Positions 6,729 to 36,320 of a stretch of 46,031 nucleotides of DNA are shown piece by piece. The translations under genes and the position numbers were made by a program. The notes under the pieces were generated by a model. The model did not search any database. It saw only the letters and a program-made list of their open reading frames with translations, and had not been told where the DNA came from. How positions within the stretch are numbered: the stretch's first letter is position 1; each line of letters begins with the position of its first letter. The stretch comes from Candidatus Peregrinibacteria bacterium (GTDB taxonomy: Bacteria > Patescibacteriota > Gracilibacteria > UBA1369 > LOWO2-01-FULL-3), in NCBI GenBank assembly GCA_016206505.1, contig JACQRJ010000024.1, positions 1 through 46,031 of the forward strand, written 5' to 3'.

Positions 6729-8110
6729 CTGCGGTCATTTAAAAAAACAGACTCCAAAGCTTCATTCCTCGATCTCAATAAACCAAGGCATCCTTCATTC
6801 TGCAAACGCTCCATCACAAGCCGCGTATACGCCGGTGCGCCGGTAGCTCCCGGGGAATTGTAATTCAAAATATGCAATGAATTTTCACCAAAAACCTGCA
6901 AAGCTTCCGGAACAAATTTCCCTTCTTTATCGACCAATGTACTGCGCACGCCGGCCTTTCCCGGCCCGCTTAAAAATTCATTTTTCACCGCCGGCATAAA
7001 TTGCTTAAGTCTCCCAACCATCATTTTATGCGAAATCGAACTGCGCCATTCGCTCCATGACAATTTCAAAAATTCCGGATTCAAAAGCAGCCTCATTTTA
7101 TTTCCTCGCGGCATCTCAAAAATCTTTTTCATAAAATCCGCAAAACTGTCGCTAAAACCCTTATATTTATAAGGCCCGATTACCGGCACCGCATTTGGCC
7201 CGATGATGACCTCACCGTTACTGCAAACCACCCAATGCGGATCAAGAAAAGGAAAAGCGCTGTTTTTTGGGACGGAATAAATATTGCGCCCGGACAAATT
7301 GGCATGTTCCGGCTTGATAACCCAGTATTCCCCACGAAAATTCAGATCACTATAATCCAAAGCAACCTTCATCATGTGGGCAAATTTCAAAGCATTTCCC
7401 CCTGCGCAATTCACCAAAAAATCAGTCACAATTTTCCGCCCGTCTTTGGCAACAAGCAGTCCTCCGTCATCCAAAATTTCCTCCACCTCAAAATCGGTCA
7501 CAAATCTTACGCCGTTTGCCTGTGCATCTGCTCGCAAAGCTCTTGTAAAAGCCCCAAAATCCACCGAAGTATCGGTCTTGCAATACAAAGCCGCCGGTGC
7601 TTTCACATTGGGCTCCAGCTCTGTCAATTGCTCATGCGATAAAAATTCCAGCTCACCATCCGACATGCCATTGTCCACTGCCCACTTTTGATATTTATGC
7701 AAAGTCGCTATTTGTTCATCATCCATAGCCACTTCCACAGTCCCGCATTCTTTCCAGGGAAGACCCCGAAAAGCGGCATATTTTTTCCACATATGATAAG
7801 ACTGCTCTGCCGCTTTTGCTATGGCGGCCTTGGCTATCGGATTCAAATAAAAAGGCCGATGAATCACTCCGGTGTTTCTGCCGCTCATATGCATCGCCAC
7901 GTCGGGCTCCTTTTCGAGTACTACGATATCTTTTCCCTCATAAAAAACCGAAAGCCAGTAGGCCAAAGTCGTCCCAAAAATTCCACCGCCCAAAATCACC
8001 AATGGGGACTCTGAAATTGATCGCAACCCGCCTAAGGCGGGTGGAGAATCAAACTTTTTCGACAACGCCATAGATGGTACTTTTTCAAAGTCCCCAAGTT
8101 TGCTTTGCAT
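6722..8110 (-). CDS. FAD-dependent oxidoreductase (L-2-hydroxyglutarate oxidase / DAO-like)
   Basis: LVILGGGIFGTTLAYWLSVFYEGKDIVVLEKEP FAD-binding motif, HMSGRNTGVIH; start placed at MQSKLGDFEKVPS (8110); MALSKK (8071) is an alternative; the 8191 start overlaps the divergent gene. Confidence 0.78.
   Translation of the reverse strand: MQSKLGDFEKVPSMALSKKFDSPPALGGLRSISESPLVILGGGIFGTTLAYWLSVFYEGKDIVVLEKEPDVAMHMSGRNTGVIHRPFYLNPIAKAAIAKAAEQSYHMWKKYAAFRGLPWKECGTVEVAMDDEQIATLHKYQKWAVDNGMSDGELEFLSHEQLTELEPNVKAPAALYCKTDTSVDFGAFTRALRADAQANGVRFVTDFEVEEILDDGGLLVAKDGRKIVTDFLVNCAGGNALKFAHMMKVALDYSDLNFRGEYWVIKPEHANLSGRNIYSVPKNSAFPFLDPHWVVCSNGEVIIGPNAVPVIGPYKYKGFSDSFADFMKKIFEMPRGNKMRLLLNPEFLKLSWSEWRSSISHKMMVGRLKQFMPAVKNEFLSGPGKAGVRSTLVDKEGKFVPEALQVFGENSLHILNYNSPGATGAPAYTRLVMERLQNEGCLGLLRSRNEALESVFLNDRRF
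8004..8095. repeat. in-gene palindromic element, copy C (rearranged left arm)
   Basis: outer arms ggggactctgaaa / tttcaaagtcccc; right half cgacaacgccatagatggtactttttc matches copy A (cgacaacgcggtagatggtactttttc); left arm carries acccgcctaaggcgggt. Confidence 0.7.
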
Positions 8111-8166
8111 CAGCGTGGATTGTAAGGCATAATCCGCCACAACTACAACTCTTTTTAAAACAACAA

Positions 8167-10566
8167 ATGCAATCACAATCCTCTTCAACAAACTTTGGCC
8201 CTTTTGAACTGCTCACATTATTTGTCGTCAACACGGGACTGGCTGGAGTTTTTTTGCTTACCCTGAATCATTTTGATTCGCTTTACAGCCTGCTTATCGG
8301 AGCATTCCTCACGGCCATTGTGATGAAATTTTTCAAATGCAAATTTACCCTAAAAGATGAACGCTTCGATATTTTTTTGCTGATAATATTGTTGATCGCC
8401 GCTTTTTTCCTGGCAAAACCGTATCTCTATGTCATGGGCGGACAGGATGAAGGCCTCTATGTAAACATGTCTACAACCTATGAAGCAACCGGTAGCACCT
8501 TCATTAAGGACTACTTTCGAGAGAGCCTGCCCGAAAACTACAAAATTATCTATGACGAAAACAATATCCTCAATAGAGTGGATATAAAAGCAGGAGAATT
8601 CGAAGGAAGTCATCTTCCAGGCATATACGTCAGAAACTTCGCCAATTCCGAGTATGTTTATCAATTTTATCCGACACATCCGGTATGGATGGCCATTTTT
8701 GCGAAAATTTTCGGCTCCGATAACAGAGTCTATTCTTTGGTATTCTTTGCACTGCTTTCTATTGTGACTTTTTTCCTTATTGCCTATGAATTTTCAAACC
8801 GAAAAAAACTGCCCGGATACCTTGTTGCTCTATTCTTGGCCATCAATCCACTTTTTATCTTTTTCGGTAAATTTCCCGTTTCCGAAATGGTTTCAGTCGC
8901 TTTTTCCAGCCTCGGTTTTTACTATCTCCTCAAATATTATAAAACCGCGCAAGAAGACTCCGAAAGCGCCAAAAATCCTCTCTACCTCCTCTTTTCATCA
9001 TTGGCTTTCTTGAATCTCTTTTTAAACCACATTTCCGGATTCCTTTACATTCCTTTTTTCTATCTGCTGTTATTAATGACCGTAGTTTTCATTAACGAAA
9101 AAAATCTCAAAAAAAATCTGATTATCTATTACCTTTCGATTTTCACAGCATATCTTCTCTCTTTATGGTACGGCCTGCATTACTCCTGGCCATATTCCTA
9201 TGACATCTACCGTCTGGAATTACAAAGATTTGCCATCATTGATTGGAAATTGCAACTGACGATTATGGTGACACTTATGACCGCACTCCCTTTTGTATTA
9301 TCCCGTTTCAAATCAAAAATAGTAGAATTGAAAAATCGCTTTCAGCCACACGCCTTGTCCATAATGGTTTTATTGATAATTTTGATGATTCCGCGAAATC
9401 TTTACATCCTCTATCAGCAGGGAATAGCCGAAAATAATCTTTTCTATTATCTTATCACTTCCACCAGTTACATCACCATGCTCTATCTGACACCGTTTGG
9501 CGCTTTGTTGTTTTTGCTTGGCCTCAACAAGCTCAGAAAATCAAAAGATGCTGCCGGTTTTGCCCTGCTGGCTTTCCTTTTACTGGTTTGGGCTATGAAG
9601 GTACACTTTGGAGTACGCATAAATTATCAATTCTACGCTTCACGTTATCTTTTTAATGAAGTGGTCGTTTATTCGCTACTTTTAATCGGAATTTACGGAG
9701 GATATTTACTTGAAAAAACGAATTACAAAAAGTATTTGGCCGCCCTATTCATAGCCGGAATGTCACTTTATTCCGTCTACTATACAGCCTATCAATTGCA
9801 GGGCCAGGAAGCTGACGGTGCAAATCAGGCACTCTCGCAGGTAGCGGCACATGTCAACGAAAAAGATCTCCTTTTGCCTACCTCTCTCGGGCATGAAATT
9901 CTCACTCCATTGCGCTATTACTATAGTTTGCCTGTTTTCGCTTTCAATCGTTTATCTCTCGACGATGCAGCTTTTGTCGAATATCTGATGGATACTTACA
10001 ACGATGTTTTCATCCTCGCTCCTGAACCGCTCTACAACACCAATTTGGAAATCATTGATATCATTGCTTACAAAGAGGGCATTTTTGAACATCCTGCTCA
10101 TAAAATCCCCACAGAATTTTTCTATCACAACACACTCAATCTCTACCTCTACAGAATCAACCGTTACGACTATTTCACCAAGAACAAAATCATTCGTCCG
10201 AAAAATTATCCGCTTACCAATTTTTATAATGATTCTTATTGGACTGACGGCAATGGCTTAATCGGCGGATTAAATTTAAAAATGCATCCCGATAACACAT
10301 ATCTCATTCTGAAAACCGGTGGCCATAACCCCTTGAGAGGTGATCTTGAAAGTCTTGGTCTGCAAATTTTCATCAACGATATCGAATTGAAATTCAGTAA
10401 AAAAGAAGGAGAAGATTATTATTTTGAAGTGAATCCCAAGATCAAGGAATTAAAAGAAATCAATGAAATTCGGATCAAATCATCAACATTCAAACCCAAG
10501 GATTTCGGCATCAATGATGACGAAAGACCGCTGGGCATAGATGTTAACTACATAATGATCAAATAG
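8167..10566 (+). CDS. multi-TM membrane glycosyltransferase-like protein (GT39/ArnT/PMT-like)
   Basis: about 799 aa, many TM helices, early loop GGQDEGLYVNMSTTY (acidic motif after first TMs as in GT-C enzymes) and soluble C-terminus; start chosen at 8167 (MQSQSSSTNFGPFELL). Confidence 0.65.
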   Translation: MQSQSSSTNFGPFELLTLFVVNTGLAGVFLLTLNHFDSLYSLLIGAFLTAIVMKFFKCKFTLKDERFDIFLLIILLIAAFFLAKPYLYVMGGQDEGLYVNMSTTYEATGSTFIKDYFRESLPENYKIIYDENNILNRVDIKAGEFEGSHLPGIYVRNFANSEYVYQFYPTHPVWMAIFAKIFGSDNRVYSLVFFALLSIVTFFLIAYEFSNRKKLPGYLVALFLAINPLFIFFGKFPVSEMVSVAFSSLGFYYLLKYYKTAQEDSESAKNPLYLLFSSLAFLNLFLNHISGFLYIPFFYLLLLMTVVFINEKNLKKNLIIYYLSIFTAYLLSLWYGLHYSWPYSYDIYRLELQRFAIIDWKLQLTIMVTLMTALPFVLSRFKSKIVELKNRFQPHALSIMVLLIILMIPRNLYILYQQGIAENNLFYYLITSTSYITMLYLTPFGALLFLLGLNKLRKSKDAAGFALLAFLLLVWAMKVHFGVRINYQFYASRYLFNEVVVYSLLLIGIYGGYLLEKTNYKKYLAALFIAGMSLYSVYYTAYQLQGQEADGANQALSQVAAHVNEKDLLLPTSLGHEILTPLRYYYSLPVFAFNRLSLDDAAFVEYLMDTYNDVFILAPEPLYNTNLEIIDIIAYKEGIFEHPAHKIPTEFFYHNTLNLYLYRINRYDYFTKNKIIRPKNYPLTNFYNDSYWTDGNGLIGGLNLKMHPDNTYLILKTGGHNPLRGDLESLGLQIFINDIELKFSKKEGEDYYFEVNPKIKELKEINEIRIKSSTFKPKDFGINDDERPLGIDVNYIMIK

Positions 10567-20275: not shown

Positions 20276-21955
20276 TCATTTCTGACAGCACAAAATCAAT
20301 TCACTGCCCAGATTATTCCGGCGCAACCAATCAAGATGTTGATCAAGAACAGCCTCATTTTTTAGAAAGTCATTTATTATCTCAGCTTCTGCTCTGGCAG
20401 CCATGGAGGAACTACATTCCGCTCCATACTTATACCAACGATCTTTTGTTTTCATGCCAACGCATTCATGATGTTCCGCAATTATTTTAAATCCGCATTT
20501 CGCCAGGATCGGTTCAAGCACTTTTCTGGAAAATATGGAAATATGCTCGCCTGGAGTAATCGCCCAAAAATCAAGCGCGTGACAATAAGGATTATCAAAA
20601 TCCGGCGTAGAAAAGACATAAATCCCCCCTTCCTTCAGAGACTTATAGATTTTGTTGAAATAATCCTCAAGTTTTTCAAGTGGCAAATGCTCTATCACTT
20701 CCCAATTAGTCACCAGATCAAGCTCCACATTTCCAAAGGATTCATTGAGAAAATCCGACTGTTTCATGTCTATCCGAAAAGGAGCCAAACCATTCTCAAT
20801 CAATGGAGAAATGCGATAATCCCAAAGCATTATCTGAAAATCCGGAAAATTTTGCCTCAAAAAAACCACAAACTCCCCATCCCCTCCGCCAAGATCAAGG
20901 ACTTTGGCATTGGAACTAAGCTTTTTAATATATGGCAAAGCTGCGACATAATTGTAAAAATGACTGGTATTTAAATGGTTCAAATTTTCATAATGAACCC
21001 TTAGAGTTTCGTCAGTCCATTCGGAAGCATCATAAGAATATCTATCATAATAACGCCAAAGTTCCTTTTCCGGCATCCGCGGATTAACAAAAACAAGCCC
21101 GCATTCATGACACAAAAAATAATATTCGGAAAAACGCGTCAAAAATCCTGTTAAAGGCTGGGAAACATCGGCATATACCGGACTGGTTGCTTTTGGGGGT
21201 TCTGAAAAAGTACCAGATACAAGGCGGCAGGAAAAGTCCGACCGCAGTGTACTGGCTTGTACAAGAGGATCGGACTTTTCCGACAACGCGGTAGATGGTA
21301 CTTTTTCAGAACCCTCTTTTGCACCGCAGAGAGGACAGGCTTCAAGATATTCCAGCCGGACATCTTCGCCATAGGCCAAAATAAATTCCGTCCCTTCCTT
21401 GCCACTGAAAAAATCCAAAATATCCTCGACGCTTTTCAGATGCAGATCTGCAATTTTTTCCACCAAAGCCCTGAAAATTTTCACTCTTCGCAGCCTTGCT
21501 AAATTTAGCTGTGAATTGTACTTACGCTGTAATACAGAATGAACGTAATATGTCTTGGAACCATCGCCAAAAACACCGGCCTTTGAAACAAGGCTGACCG
21601 CCGTACCCGGCACCGCACCTTTGGCTTCAATCCTCACATTTCTTGCTGCAGCTTCTTCAATCATCGTTCTTAGCAAAGGCAAATCCAAAAGTGGATTTAT
21701 CAAGGGAGTGATTACCATTATCTGTTCAGGGTCTTCTGCGTTGGCAATAAGCTTTTCATCATCATCCGCCCCCATTTGCTGAAATCCCAATGAATAATCG
21801 GAGAAAAAATGCTCCAGCCTCTTTTGTATAAACTGAAATAAAAATTGATCAAACTGCTCCGCCTCAAGGTGCTGACTGCTTCTGCAATAAATTTTCAATC
21901 GCTTCAACATAGAATGGTCAAATACTACTTTGGTAAGAAAATTTGTCCAGCTCAT
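20276..21955 (-). CDS. class I SAM-dependent methyltransferase with N-terminal extension and zinc-ribbon-like CxxC...CxxC
   Basis: VLDLGGGDGEFVVFLRQNFPDFQIMLWDYR, LVTNWEVIEHLPLEKLEDYF; CPLCG...CHECGLVFVNPRMPE split by a palindromic element. Confidence 0.85.
   Translation of the reverse strand: MSWTNFLTKVVFDHSMLKRLKIYCRSSQHLEAEQFDQFLFQFIQKRLEHFFSDYSLGFQQMGADDDEKLIANAEDPEQIMVITPLINPLLDLPLLRTMIEEAAARNVRIEAKGAVPGTAVSLVSKAGVFGDGSKTYYVHSVLQRKYNSQLNLARLRRVKIFRALVEKIADLHLKSVEDILDFFSGKEGTEFILAYGEDVRLEYLEACPLCGAKEGSEKVPSTALSEKSDPLVQASTLRSDFSCRLVSGTFSEPPKATSPVYADVSQPLTGFLTRFSEYYFLCHECGLVFVNPRMPEKELWRYYDRYSYDASEWTDETLRVHYENLNHLNTSHFYNYVAALPYIKKLSSNAKVLDLGGGDGEFVVFLRQNFPDFQIMLWDYRISPLIENGLAPFRIDMKQSDFLNESFGNVELDLVTNWEVIEHLPLEKLEDYFNKIYKSLKEGGIYVFSTPDFDNPYCHALDFWAITPGEHISIFSRKVLEPILAKCGFKIIAEHHECVGMKTKDRWYKYGAECSSSMAARAEAEIINDFLKNEAVLDQHLDWLRRNNLGSELILCCQK
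21197..21314. repeat. in-gene palindromic element, copy A
   Basis: 19-bp perfect outer arms (gggttctgaaaaagtacca / tggtactttttcagaaccc), 12-bp perfect inner arms (ggaaaagtccga / tcggacttttcc), apical tgtac/gtaca; ORF stays open across it. Confidence 0.93.
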
Positions 21956-32415: not shown

Positions 32416-33796
32416 GCAAAACTCCGGCCAAAATCACCGCCAAAATCTTCAGCATAAAAGACGACCAAAATCCCAGCCCGATGACAAAATAATAAGCAAC
32501 CACAAAAGGCACCAATAAAGCTAAAATTTTCAGAATCGGCCAAAGCGGCACGCAATAAATTTTTAGAACTTTTTTACTCACAATAAAAGCAAAAACTGCC
32601 ATCGCAAAATACGACACAGCCGTGGTATAGGCCGCAGCGATATAACCAAAATCCGGAATAAACAGTGCATTTAAAATCACATTCAAAACTCCCGCGGCCA
32701 GTACCACCAGAGATAAATATATATTTTTTTTCTCGTATTCGATATTCCAACCGTAAAACATAAAAATTGCATTAAAGATTTACCCTATGACAATTATCGG
32801 TATCACGGGCAAAGCTTCATAAAAACTGCTGGAAGAAAGCAGCATGCCGATTTCCTGGCCGAAAAAAATCAATCCCAAAGCGCAAAAACTCACGATTTTA
32901 AAAATTCTGTAAGCATCGATATTTAATTGCTGATAGTTTTTCTCATCCATATATTTGAAATAATCCGGATTCCAGGCCTGAAACATCGCACTGCTAAAAA
33001 CGGTTAAAATCGAGCCTACGATGGCCGCAAAAGCATACAAACCTGCCATAGAACTTCCGAGGTACTTATTGACCATTATCTTGTCAAACTGTGCCAAAAT
33101 CACTCCACTCAACGAATAAAAAATCAGAGGAACTCCATAATGCAGAAAATACTTCATATGCTTCATTTGAAAAGACAGCTTCAAATACGCTTTCAAATCA
33201 AAAGCATAATAAGCAAAAAACAAACCTCCGACGATCATCATCGCATAAATCTGGCCCAAATATTTATTCTCATTCAAAATCAAAATCAGCACAACCGACA
33301 AAACAAATATCGCATAAGCTTTTACCACATTCCTCACGGCGATTTTCCGACTCTGTTTTTGAGGCACATATATTTGCTCAAACCATGAGCCGCTGACATA
33401 AATCAACACTGCCGGAACAATGTAAAAAATCGTATTCACCGGCAATCCCAAAAGCACCGCAGCCTCTTGTCGAAAGATGACAAAAAGCAAAAAAGCTACA
33501 AAAAGCATAAACAGTATGAAAATCAAAATGGTCCCAAAAAACTCCTTGAAATCTTCCTTTTTTTCATAATAATACCGCCCCAGAGCGACATAGCAATTTA
33601 GCGTCAGTAAAGCCACAAATACCCCCTGATAACCTGTAAAAACGGCCAGTATGCCATAGTCTGAAGTCGAAAGCATTCTTGTCAAAACCGGCAAAGACAA
33701 AAATGCCAGAGCGCCGGTTGCCATATTGCTCAGAAAATAATTCTTCGAATGTCTCAAAAACTCATAAAACTCACTTTTTTTGAAAGCTCTAATCAT
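32366..33796 (-). pseudogene. oligosaccharide flippase/repeat-unit transporter (Wzx/MATE-like) interrupted by one in-frame TAA at 32780-32782
   Basis: 32780-33796 and 32366-32761 are in the same frame; read-through gives PVIPIIVIG*IFNAIFMFYGWNIEYEKKN, continuous flippase-like sequence on both sides. Confidence 0.85.
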
Positions 33797-35310
33797 TCGT
33801 GTTTTTTTGTTAAATCATCTATAGCCTTTAGTAAGCGCAAATGCCCTTTGCTGTCAAGCACTCCCCATTTCAACGCCGCAACTTTTTGCATTTCAAGTAT
33901 CTTCGCATAAAATTTTTCATCATTTGCAAATTTCACCAAAAGATTCTGAAATTCCTTTTTTTCTTCTGTATAAACTATCCCTCTATAATCCTCGAAATCA
34001 CTATACCGATACCTGTAAACGTCATAATTCAAAACAGGTTTCCTGCAAGCCGTAGCCCAATAAATAGTCCCCGACATGGCCGAAACAAAAAGATCGCATA
34101 AAGGTATCAGATCGATACTTTTCTGCTTTGCAATCTTCACGCCAAAATCTTCAATATATCTGATTTCTTCATACTTAATGGCTGGATGAAGCGAAATAAC
34201 GACATTGTAATTCTTAATCGCAACAAGCGATTTTATCCAAAATATAACCAGATCATCATATTTCTTAAAATCACACTCCGGCCGTGAGTAGCCATACAAA
34301 ATATTCGGCGGCAGAGCGCAGAGCAAAATCTGCTTCTTTTTATCCAATGAGGACTCTGCAAAAGTACCAGATACAAGACGGCAGGAAAAGTTCGACCGCA
34401 GTGTACTGGCCTGTACATGAGAATCGAACTTTTCCGACAACACAGTAGATGGTACTTTTGCAGAGTCCTCCAATTTCAATTTTTCGCAAAGCTCATTGCG
34501 ACGTATATCAAAATGTCTGAGATGATCTGCCATGATATCGTTTGCCAGGGAACCGGTAAGCAATATCTGGCGCGCAGGAATCCCCTCTTTAATCATAAAT
34601 TCCTTCACCGCTTCGCATTCCACCATGATTTTATCTGCATGACTGCTGTTTACGATCCATGGCAATGGAGGCTTGAGACCAAAAATTTTCATTGCCAAAA
34701 TCTTAAAAGCCGGCCAACGCAGCAATTTTTTCCCCTTATGCTTATAGACCCATTTCGGCTCAAAATAAGCCAAAATTCGATTGCTAAATCTCCTGCAGTC
34801 GTGAGCCGGATTATAAAAATAGGCTTCAGCCGCTTCCACCGGACCGGTTGTGAACATCGGAATTATTGCGGAAGGCACGCCATATTTATGTCCGACTTTT
34901 ATCAAAATATCCGTATTGTGACCTGTATTGTCACCCGAGATTATGATTATAGCGGGCTTCACGTTCTTAATCAGACGTTTGATTTTTTTAAATTCCCTGA
35001 AATAAGCCAAAAATTCATATGCAAAACCGACAAAAAAGTTGCGATACACCATCAACAAAAACTTCTTCACGGCATTTTGCCGTGGATTTAATCTCGACGC
35101 GTCTGCGCCTTGAATATCGGCTTTTTCAAAGCCGCAAACATATTCCATCCCTTCTCTCTCACAAATTTTCAGATCCTGCCGATATTGAGGATAAGGTTGA
35201 GGGAAATAAAAAACCGGCTTATATCCGGATTCTTTCTTCAACATTCTCCCTATTTCCACCAGACCGATGAAATACGTCATTGTATTGACCGCCAGCAATG
35301 CTTTCTTCAT
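33793..35310 (-). CDS. GT-B-fold-like polysaccharide biosynthesis protein (specific function unknown)
   Basis: MKKALLAVNTMTYFIGLVEIGRMLKKESGYKPVFYF, ARQILLTGSLANDIMADHL, VVISLHPAIKYEEIRYIED; carries palindromic element copy B; ATGA overlap with flippase start. Confidence 0.6.
   Translation of the reverse strand: MKKALLAVNTMTYFIGLVEIGRMLKKESGYKPVFYFPQPYPQYRQDLKICEREGMEYVCGFEKADIQGADASRLNPRQNAVKKFLLMVYRNFFVGFAYEFLAYFREFKKIKRLIKNVKPAIIIISGDNTGHNTDILIKVGHKYGVPSAIIPMFTTGPVEAAEAYFYNPAHDCRRFSNRILAYFEPKWVYKHKGKKLLRWPAFKILAMKIFGLKPPLPWIVNSSHADKIMVECEAVKEFMIKEGIPARQILLTGSLANDIMADHLRHFDIRRNELCEKLKLEDSAKVPSTVLSEKFDSHVQASTLRSNFSCRLVSGTFAESSLDKKKQILLCALPPNILYGYSRPECDFKKYDDLVIFWIKSLVAIKNYNVVISLHPAIKYEEIRYIEDFGVKIAKQKSIDLIPLCDLFVSAMSGTIYWATACRKPVLNYDVYRYRYSDFEDYRGIVYTEEKKEFQNLLVKFANDEKFYAKILEMQKVAALKWGVLDSKGHLRLLKAIDDLTKKHE
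34349..34470. repeat. in-gene palindromic element, copy B
   Basis: 21-bp perfect outer arms (gaggactctgcaaaagtacca / tggtacttttgcagagtcctc), 12-bp inner arms (ggaaaagttcga / tcgaacttttcc), apical tgtac/gtaca; ORF stays open. Confidence 0.93.
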
Positions 35311-35315
35311 ATTTG

Positions 35316-36320
35316 TTATTTCAAAAACCACTTTTTAAGCCTACCGATAATCCCATCACCTTCGGAAAATTTCAAATAACGCCTCATCAAAGCTACTCGC
35401 CAATATTTCAAATACGGCTTCCACTCGGGATTCACCTCTGCGGCCCATTTTTTAAATTCCTTCCAATTAAGTTTCTTCATTTCCAGAAGTCTCGCCAGAT
35501 CCAGAGAAATCCACGCTGCCAGATATGGCGTCGGCTTAAGATATTTTACCACCCCATGTGCCTGCATCGTGCTTGCTCGTAGCAATTCTTCTTTACTCCA
35601 CTCCATCTCCACAGAAACCTTTTTAATCTTTCGCGCCCACGGACTGTTTTTATGAATCAATTGATGATAATGAAAAACTTCATCCACAAAGCCACACTTG
35701 CCTCCGCCTTTATTGACCACATTTTCAAAAACATAATCCTCCTGCCGATAAACATAATCATCATCGATTTCCCCCAAATGAGCCATAAAAGCCTCCTTTT
35801 TCCCAATCTGTGTTCCTGCAAAAGGACGTTTTTTCGTCTTATTATTTTCATCCGAAAATTCCAGCATCGCGGTTATCTGCATCTGGCAGCCAAACCAGTC
35901 ATATTGATTCCTATACTTTTTCATCACATCAAACCAGTCTTCCGGTATAAAAACATCCGAATGAAAATAAGCGAACCACCCGCTATCGACCTCCTCAATC
36001 AGCTTTCTGATGCTGAATCCCAAAGTTTTGTATTGCCTGTGATCGAAGAGCTCCACTCTCGGAAACTTTTTTACGATTTCTATGGAATTATCCACGCATC
36101 CTCCATCTCCGATTAAGAGCCTTTTCACAGGGATTTCGCGATAAATCGATCGCAAATTGGCCTCCCACATCTCATTTGTATGAATAATTGGTATAATAAT
36201 CTCCAAAGCATCCTTATCATCTTCCAAAAAACGGTCTTTGAACTCTTCCGGATTATAGTAACGGTAAAATATCGATACATCGCTTTTTGCAGAGTCATCA
36301 TTTTTATCTTTTGTATTCAT
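35316..36320 (-). CDS. family 2-like glycosyltransferase
   Basis: LEIIIPIIHTNEMWEANLRSIYREIPVKRLLIGDGGCVDNSIEIVKKFP, GWFAYFHSDVFIPEDWFDVM. Confidence 0.75.
   Translation of the reverse strand: MNTKDKNDDSAKSDVSIFYRYYNPEEFKDRFLEDDKDALEIIIPIIHTNEMWEANLRSIYREIPVKRLLIGDGGCVDNSIEIVKKFPRVELFDHRQYKTLGFSIRKLIEEVDSGWFAYFHSDVFIPEDWFDVMKKYRNQYDWFGCQMQITAMLEFSDENNKTKKRPFAGTQIGKKEAFMAHLGEIDDDYVYRQEDYVFENVVNKGGGKCGFVDEVFHYHQLIHKNSPWARKIKKVSVEMEWSKEELLRASTMQAHGVVKYLKPTPYLAAWISLDLARLLEMKKLNWKEFKKWAAEVNPEWKPYLKYWRVALMRRYLKFSEGDGIIGRLKKWFLK

Follow-up and report, generated by a model that had tools for sequence, protein, structure and literature searches.

The window, by which we mean the whole stretch of 46,031 nucleotides analysed here, carries a short palindromic element in three places, designated copies A, B, and C. 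Two of these copies lie in frame within minus-strand open reading frames (ORFs), one of which encodes a methyltransferase, and the third is internally deleted.

Approximately 8003 to 8096, plus strand: element copy C, internally deleted, with a different central hairpin (CCCGCCTAAGGCGGG)
20276 to 21955, minus strand: host gene of copy A, encoding a SAM-dependent methyltransferase of 559 aa with Methyltransf_23/25 domains
21190 to 21194: left copy of the target duplication CTTTT of element A
21195 to 21315, plus strand in the family-consensus orientation: element copy A, an imperfect palindrome of 121 bp, read by its host ORF on the minus strand
21316 to 21320: right copy of the target duplication CTTTT of element A
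33793 to 35331, minus strand: host ORF of copy B, 512 aa
34344 to 34348: left copy of the target duplication CCAAT of element B
34349 to 34469, plus strand: element copy B, 121 bp, in frame in the minus-strand ORF
34470 to 34474: right copy of the target duplication CCAAT of element B

The palindrome of copy A is genuine and far exceeds what chance would produce. In the orientation of the family consensus, it reads CAGATACAAGGCGGCAGG..CCGCAGTGTACT-loop-GTACAAGAGGATC..CCGACAACGCGGTAGATG, and it has a perfect outer stem of 19 bp, an inner stem of 12 bp (GGAAAAGTCCGA/TCGGACTTTTCC), and an apex of TGTAC/GTACA, all of which had been recognized in the preliminary description of this DNA. Its minimum free energy, calculated by RNA folding, is -72.1 kcal/mol versus a shuffled mean of -31.7 (z -10.7), and none of 200 shuffles was as stable. 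The near-palindrome had been placed at 21197 to 21314 (118 bp); it does lie there, but its exact limits are 21195 to 21315, because they are set by the duplicated target CTTTT.

The methyltransferase ORF is uninterrupted across copy A. Genome G040, from the same order as the host, is the sole relative in the search set that encodes a clear ortholog of this protein, with identities of 78% over residues 257 to 559 and 54% over residues 13 to 211. The G040 protein reads CPLC-ESISFS-PVYAD, with CPLCESISFSPVYADV at the place where copy A adds 42 aa between CPLCG and PVYADV, whereas 48 residues separate CPLC from PVYAD in the window protein. The gain amounts to 126 bp (42 codons), which is the 121-bp element plus the 5-bp duplication, and since it brings in no stop codon, the predicted methyltransferase gains 42 residues. 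About 40 added residues had been proposed earlier; the frame is kept as described, and the exact figure is 42 codons once the duplication is counted. At the level of sequence comparison, the element-free ortholog and the perfect 5-bp target duplication show that the element entered a pre-existing methyltransferase gene, as the preliminary description had proposed on finding related copies in unrelated genes. An ancestral origin of the segment as part of the methyltransferase would agree with the open frame and with its position between two CxxC motifs. However, the G040 ortholog lacks the segment, and the same sequence occurs in RsmH, RecX, and intergenic DNA, so that this origin is ruled out by the element-free ortholog together with the other copies and its probability is negligible. 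Orthologs sharing the segment, or a genome devoid of further copies, had been named as observations that would speak against an insertion, and neither was encountered: the segment is missing from G040, and about 11 well-matched copies are present in the host genome.

Of these 11 copies, in an assembly of 1.15 Mb that is 84% complete, ten are strong BLAST hits, and the remaining one was detected with a covariance model (R1) built from copies of the host's bacterial family only. The genome size, together with the large number of small relatives, suggests that the host is a Patescibacterium. Two or three further copies are diverged and form a subfamily with GGAACCTCTGAAAAACG arms. Four copies in the host genome lie in frame in ORFs (the methyltransferase, the copy-B ORF, RsmH, and RecX, the last near the N-terminus and ahead of the first RecX domain), and the remainder, which is the majority, are intergenic or at gene ends. 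The 512-aa host ORF of copy B has no Pfam match. Copy C is situated at the 5' end of an FAD oxidoreductase ORF and overlaps the start of a divergent ORF (8074 to 10566); the oxidoreductase domain starts at residue 64, and since copy C is upstream of this domain it probably flanks the gene on the 5' side and is not part of it. Of the two unrelated window genes in which homologous copies had been reported, the 512-aa ORF does hold one in frame, but the other case is probably a flanking copy. Among 60 relatives, 11 carry the element, with at most 12 copies each. One copy in G004 is in frame in an O-antigen ligase gene, and in MnmA an in-frame copy occupies the same place in G002 and in G025, which are congeneric species, indicating that this insertion outlived the species split. 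No element was found among the viral contigs, phages, and plasmids searched.

Several further traces of these sequences were seen. The apical loop is replaced by a GC-rich hairpin (CCCGCCTNAGGCGGG) in two host-genome copies (8003 to 8040 of the window and L010). In MnmA of G002 (L030, approximately 1400 to 1540), some 25 G-to-A changes relative to G025 cover the upstream flank and, of the hairpin itself, only its 5' arm; the pattern looks like deamination of one arm in a single-stranded state, unless the assembly is at fault. The host genome (G000) also contains nine solitary 15-base arms (GAGGACTCTGCAAAA, at most one mismatch) outside full elements, against none for the reversed control; examples are at 36285 to 36299 of the window (minus strand) and in L224 to L230, some of them in ORFs, and the one in L227 reads GAGGACTCTGCAAAAGTCCTC, resembling a deletion scar.

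A structure alignment of 39 copies from the host's bacterial family and one from its order has 94.7% of its cells paired and two-sided changes in 35 of 41 pairs, and none of 500 shuffles reached any of these measures. The outer helix is the most variable part, its arms of 15 to 20 bp differing among copies but remaining complementary, while the asymmetric internal loops AAGGCG/CAACGCAG and CGCAG/TGAGG are the least variable. Because compensating arms sit beside conserved mismatches, the alignment suggests two zones under different forces. Hairpin-templated repair could be an alternative source of the covariation in the outer arms.

The element is short, encodes no transposase of its own, has terminal inverted repeats, and occurs in multiple copies, as is characteristic of miniature transposable elements (MITEs), and the target duplications of copies A and B are perfect. 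Perfect 5-mer target duplications flank 14 of 68 copies, significantly more than in 2000 shuffles (mean 2.1, maximum 8). A search for the element arm identified, in the sister genome G019, an insertion sequence (IS) of 1167 bp with terminal repeats GAGGCCTCTGCAAAAG, whose transposase scores above the NCBIfam IS5 cut-off, and a relative of this IS in G017 ends in GGAAGCTCTGAAAAAC. The G019 repeat differs from the arms of host-genome copies L003 and L007 by one mismatch in 16, and the G017 repeat differs by the same amount from the arms of copies L017 and L075; copy A's own arm has four mismatches to the IS5-family terminal repeat. Since each of the two IS repeats matches one arm type with a single mismatch in 16, these comparisons support the borrowing of arms from resident IS5-type elements. 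The core of the element has no counterpart seen in the IS. YTAR-like sites flank the divergent subfamily, and the G017 IS is flanked likewise (TTAG), whereas the 5-bp duplications of copies A and B (CTTTT and CCAAT) are not YTAR. A 5-bp duplication is not usual for IS5-family elements; the G019 IS has no clear target duplication, and a matching transposase was not found in the host genome (84% complete).

Relatives of the element extend well beyond the host lineage. Public genomes contain the exact core CCGCAGTGTACT-loop-GTACATGAGGATC in 107 stretches, which are labelled Melainabacteria/Caenarcaniphilales/Cyanobacteria, Holosporales or Alphaproteobacteria, and, in one case, an Oceanospirillales MAG; it is absent from viral contigs. 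A relaxed two-gap pattern matched 73 of 369 genomes of the Gammaproteobacteria, the class of the Oceanospirillales MAG, with up to 60 matches in one genome, and its reversed control gave one match among the matches listed. The same pattern was present in 4 of 142 genomes of an alphaproteobacterial sample that may include Rickettsiales. Model R1 found full-length matches in Caenarcaniphilales, Holosporales, and Gammaproteobacteria (E approximately 1e-15 to 1e-4).

The described family that most resembles the element is ERIC, also called IRU or RU-1, which has been known since 1990-91. ERIC targets TA, in contrast to the 5-bp duplication seen here. Both are imperfect palindromes of similar size (approximately 127 bp for ERIC and 121 bp here), and the ERIC core AAGGC..GGAGCTTAC-loop-GTAAGTGA..AACGCAG has the identical order and similar spacing. 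The outer arms differ: those of ERIC are of the TATACCC type (TATACCC/GGGTATA), and those of the element are GGGGGTTCTG and GAGGACTCTG, which places it outside enterobacterial ERIC in the strict sense. The superfamily pattern AAGGC..GSAGYNTAC-loop-GTAMRTGA..AACGC within an imperfect palindrome is present, copy A being one base off the strict form of the core (GTACAAGA). Model R1 gave only a weak signal for ERIC (best match in 18 kb, E 0.019). A second model (R2), trained on a wider set without ERIC, had three full-length E. coli ERIC elements as its top matches (E 8.7e-7, 2.6e-4, and 2.7e-4; next 0.73), although its gammaproteobacterial members, all of which also match R1, were gathered with a pattern written with ERIC in view. 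Because R2 ranks these elements first without having been trained on them, we conclude from model and motif likeness that ERIC is a member of the same superfamily as the host element. The comparison shows that the consistently imperfect core CAAGGC..CCGCAGTGTACT-loop-GTACATGAGGA..CAACGCAG is conserved across the host's family, Caenarcaniphilales, Holosporales, Gammaproteobacteria, and E. coli ERIC, and the full-length collinearity favours common descent over convergence on one recognition site. In enterobacteria, in-frame intragenic ERIC copies with a 42-aa translation have been reported (PMC2759123), and ERIC has been described from Enterobacteriaceae and Vibrionaceae (PMC10969869). Searches of the open-access literature yielded no paper that describes such elements from candidate phyla with small genomes, from Melainabacteria, or from Holosporales.

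The preliminary description had compared the element with Rickettsia palindromic elements (RPE), and the comparison holds for behaviour, with in-frame insertions in unrelated genes (methyltransferase, RsmH, MnmA, and O-antigen ligase). By model score the nearest described family is ERIC, and the element has relatives in several phyla. RPE are described from Rickettsia, and we know of no arm exchange among them. An RPE or its direct descendant, spread as coding palindromes among alphaproteobacterial endosymbionts, might have reached the host lineage; RPE are in-frame palindromes of approximately 120 to 150 bp in unrelated genes, with nearly half of their copies within ORFs (PMC10969869), and related Holosporales elements are in frame in AspRS and a Mur ligase. 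Such an origin is nevertheless unlikely, given that the superfamily pattern is rare in the sampled Alphaproteobacteria and common in the gammaproteobacterial sample, and that the Holosporales copies score below many gammaproteobacterial ones on R1.

Palindromic, non-autonomous sequences also include REP elements and REPINs, and the strong hairpin with conserved internal loops is what would be expected if a RAYT (Y1 HUH) transposase recognized and moved the element as a folded single strand. The element is larger than these (121 bp), its target is duplicated, and no Y1_Tnp gene was found in the host genome (84% complete), for which reason a RAYT/REP origin was rejected as very unlikely. We give equally little credence to a functional structured RNA or terminator that is kept for its RNA role and is at times read through as protein. 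The compensatory changes and the mostly intergenic or gene-end location of the host-genome copies are consistent with such a role, as is the finding that ERIC can affect mRNA stability (PMC10969869), but the insertions are in unrelated genes, on either strand, and with duplicated targets, and the arms have wholly different sequences. A known Rfam RNA was rejected, as no Rfam family matches within the window.

Copy A is most probably a non-autonomous transposable element (MITE) of approximately 121 bp. It would be a member of an ERIC-like superfamily, in which the asymmetric core is conserved and the outer arms vary but compensate each other. The arms would act as terminal inverted repeats recognized in trans by resident IS transposases, at least some of them of the IS5 family. 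The mismatched core may be kept by selection for contact with a folded strand or a double-stranded site, perhaps by the transposase or a host factor. Genic copies would survive because neither their length nor their stop content closes the frame and because the protein tolerates the extra peptide as a surface loop. With moderate confidence, we further propose that one palindrome superfamily, either ancient or spread horizontally, has ERIC as its enterobacterial branch and is found in at least Pseudomonadota, Cyanobacteriota (Caenarcaniphilales), and the host's small-genome lineage. In this superfamily, one asymmetric core would have been kept, terminal arms would have been swapped to suit resident IS transposases, and in-frame peptides of approximately 40 residues would regularly have been added to essential proteins. 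A core common to ERIC and other phyla, with arms that in two cases match nearby IS5 repeats, suggests a testable route by which one small core could move under different transposases.

The consequences for proteins are predicted from translation. The RsmH copy (contig 32) encodes an insert that is absent from all 20 of the other orthologs aligned. An AlphaFold model of this protein (24-sequence alignment) has a mean pLDDT of 85, with insert residues 100 to 131 below 50, which fits a tolerated disordered loop, although low pLDDT is no proof of disorder. Among the exact-core copies of Caenarcaniphilales and Holosporales, 40 of 97 distinct sampled copies lie within ORFs that are 120 aa or longer, and almost all of these are read in a single frame (RTSSRLRRTNDRSVLxVHEDHEDDENAEIGV or ARARKNAAQDRSVLDVHEDPSSGSDEANCEKE). 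Peptides predicted from inserts in the host organism or in Caenarcaniphilales include SEKSDPLVQASTLR and TNDRSVLxVHEDHEDDENAEIGV. By Pfam, the insert-bearing ORFs include GMP synthase, glutamyl-tRNA synthetase, aspartyl-tRNA synthetase, Mur ligase, DabA, a Radical SAM protein, an SNF2 helicase, and a GTPase, the two synthetase names (GluRS and AspRS) being our reading of Pfam domain pairs. These cases were identified by ORF spanning and Pfam, and ortholog comparison covers only the methyltransferase and RsmH. In Caenarcaniphilales, where genic and intergenic copies were compared by length modulo three, the core length hardly varies. With in-frame insertions so frequent in the essential genes of reduced genomes, it becomes possible to test outside Rickettsia whether mobile palindromes give rise to new protein segments.

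Some copies in these two groups are compound. In Caenarcaniphilales (L111, L145, L146, and L151), tandem copies are 123 or 126 bp apart, both multiples of three, and those in L111 and L151 are read through in frame. In Holosporales (L082, L083, L098, and L144) and in L040, small palindromes (e.g., AGACACTTGTGTCGT) are nested inside element copies at differing places.
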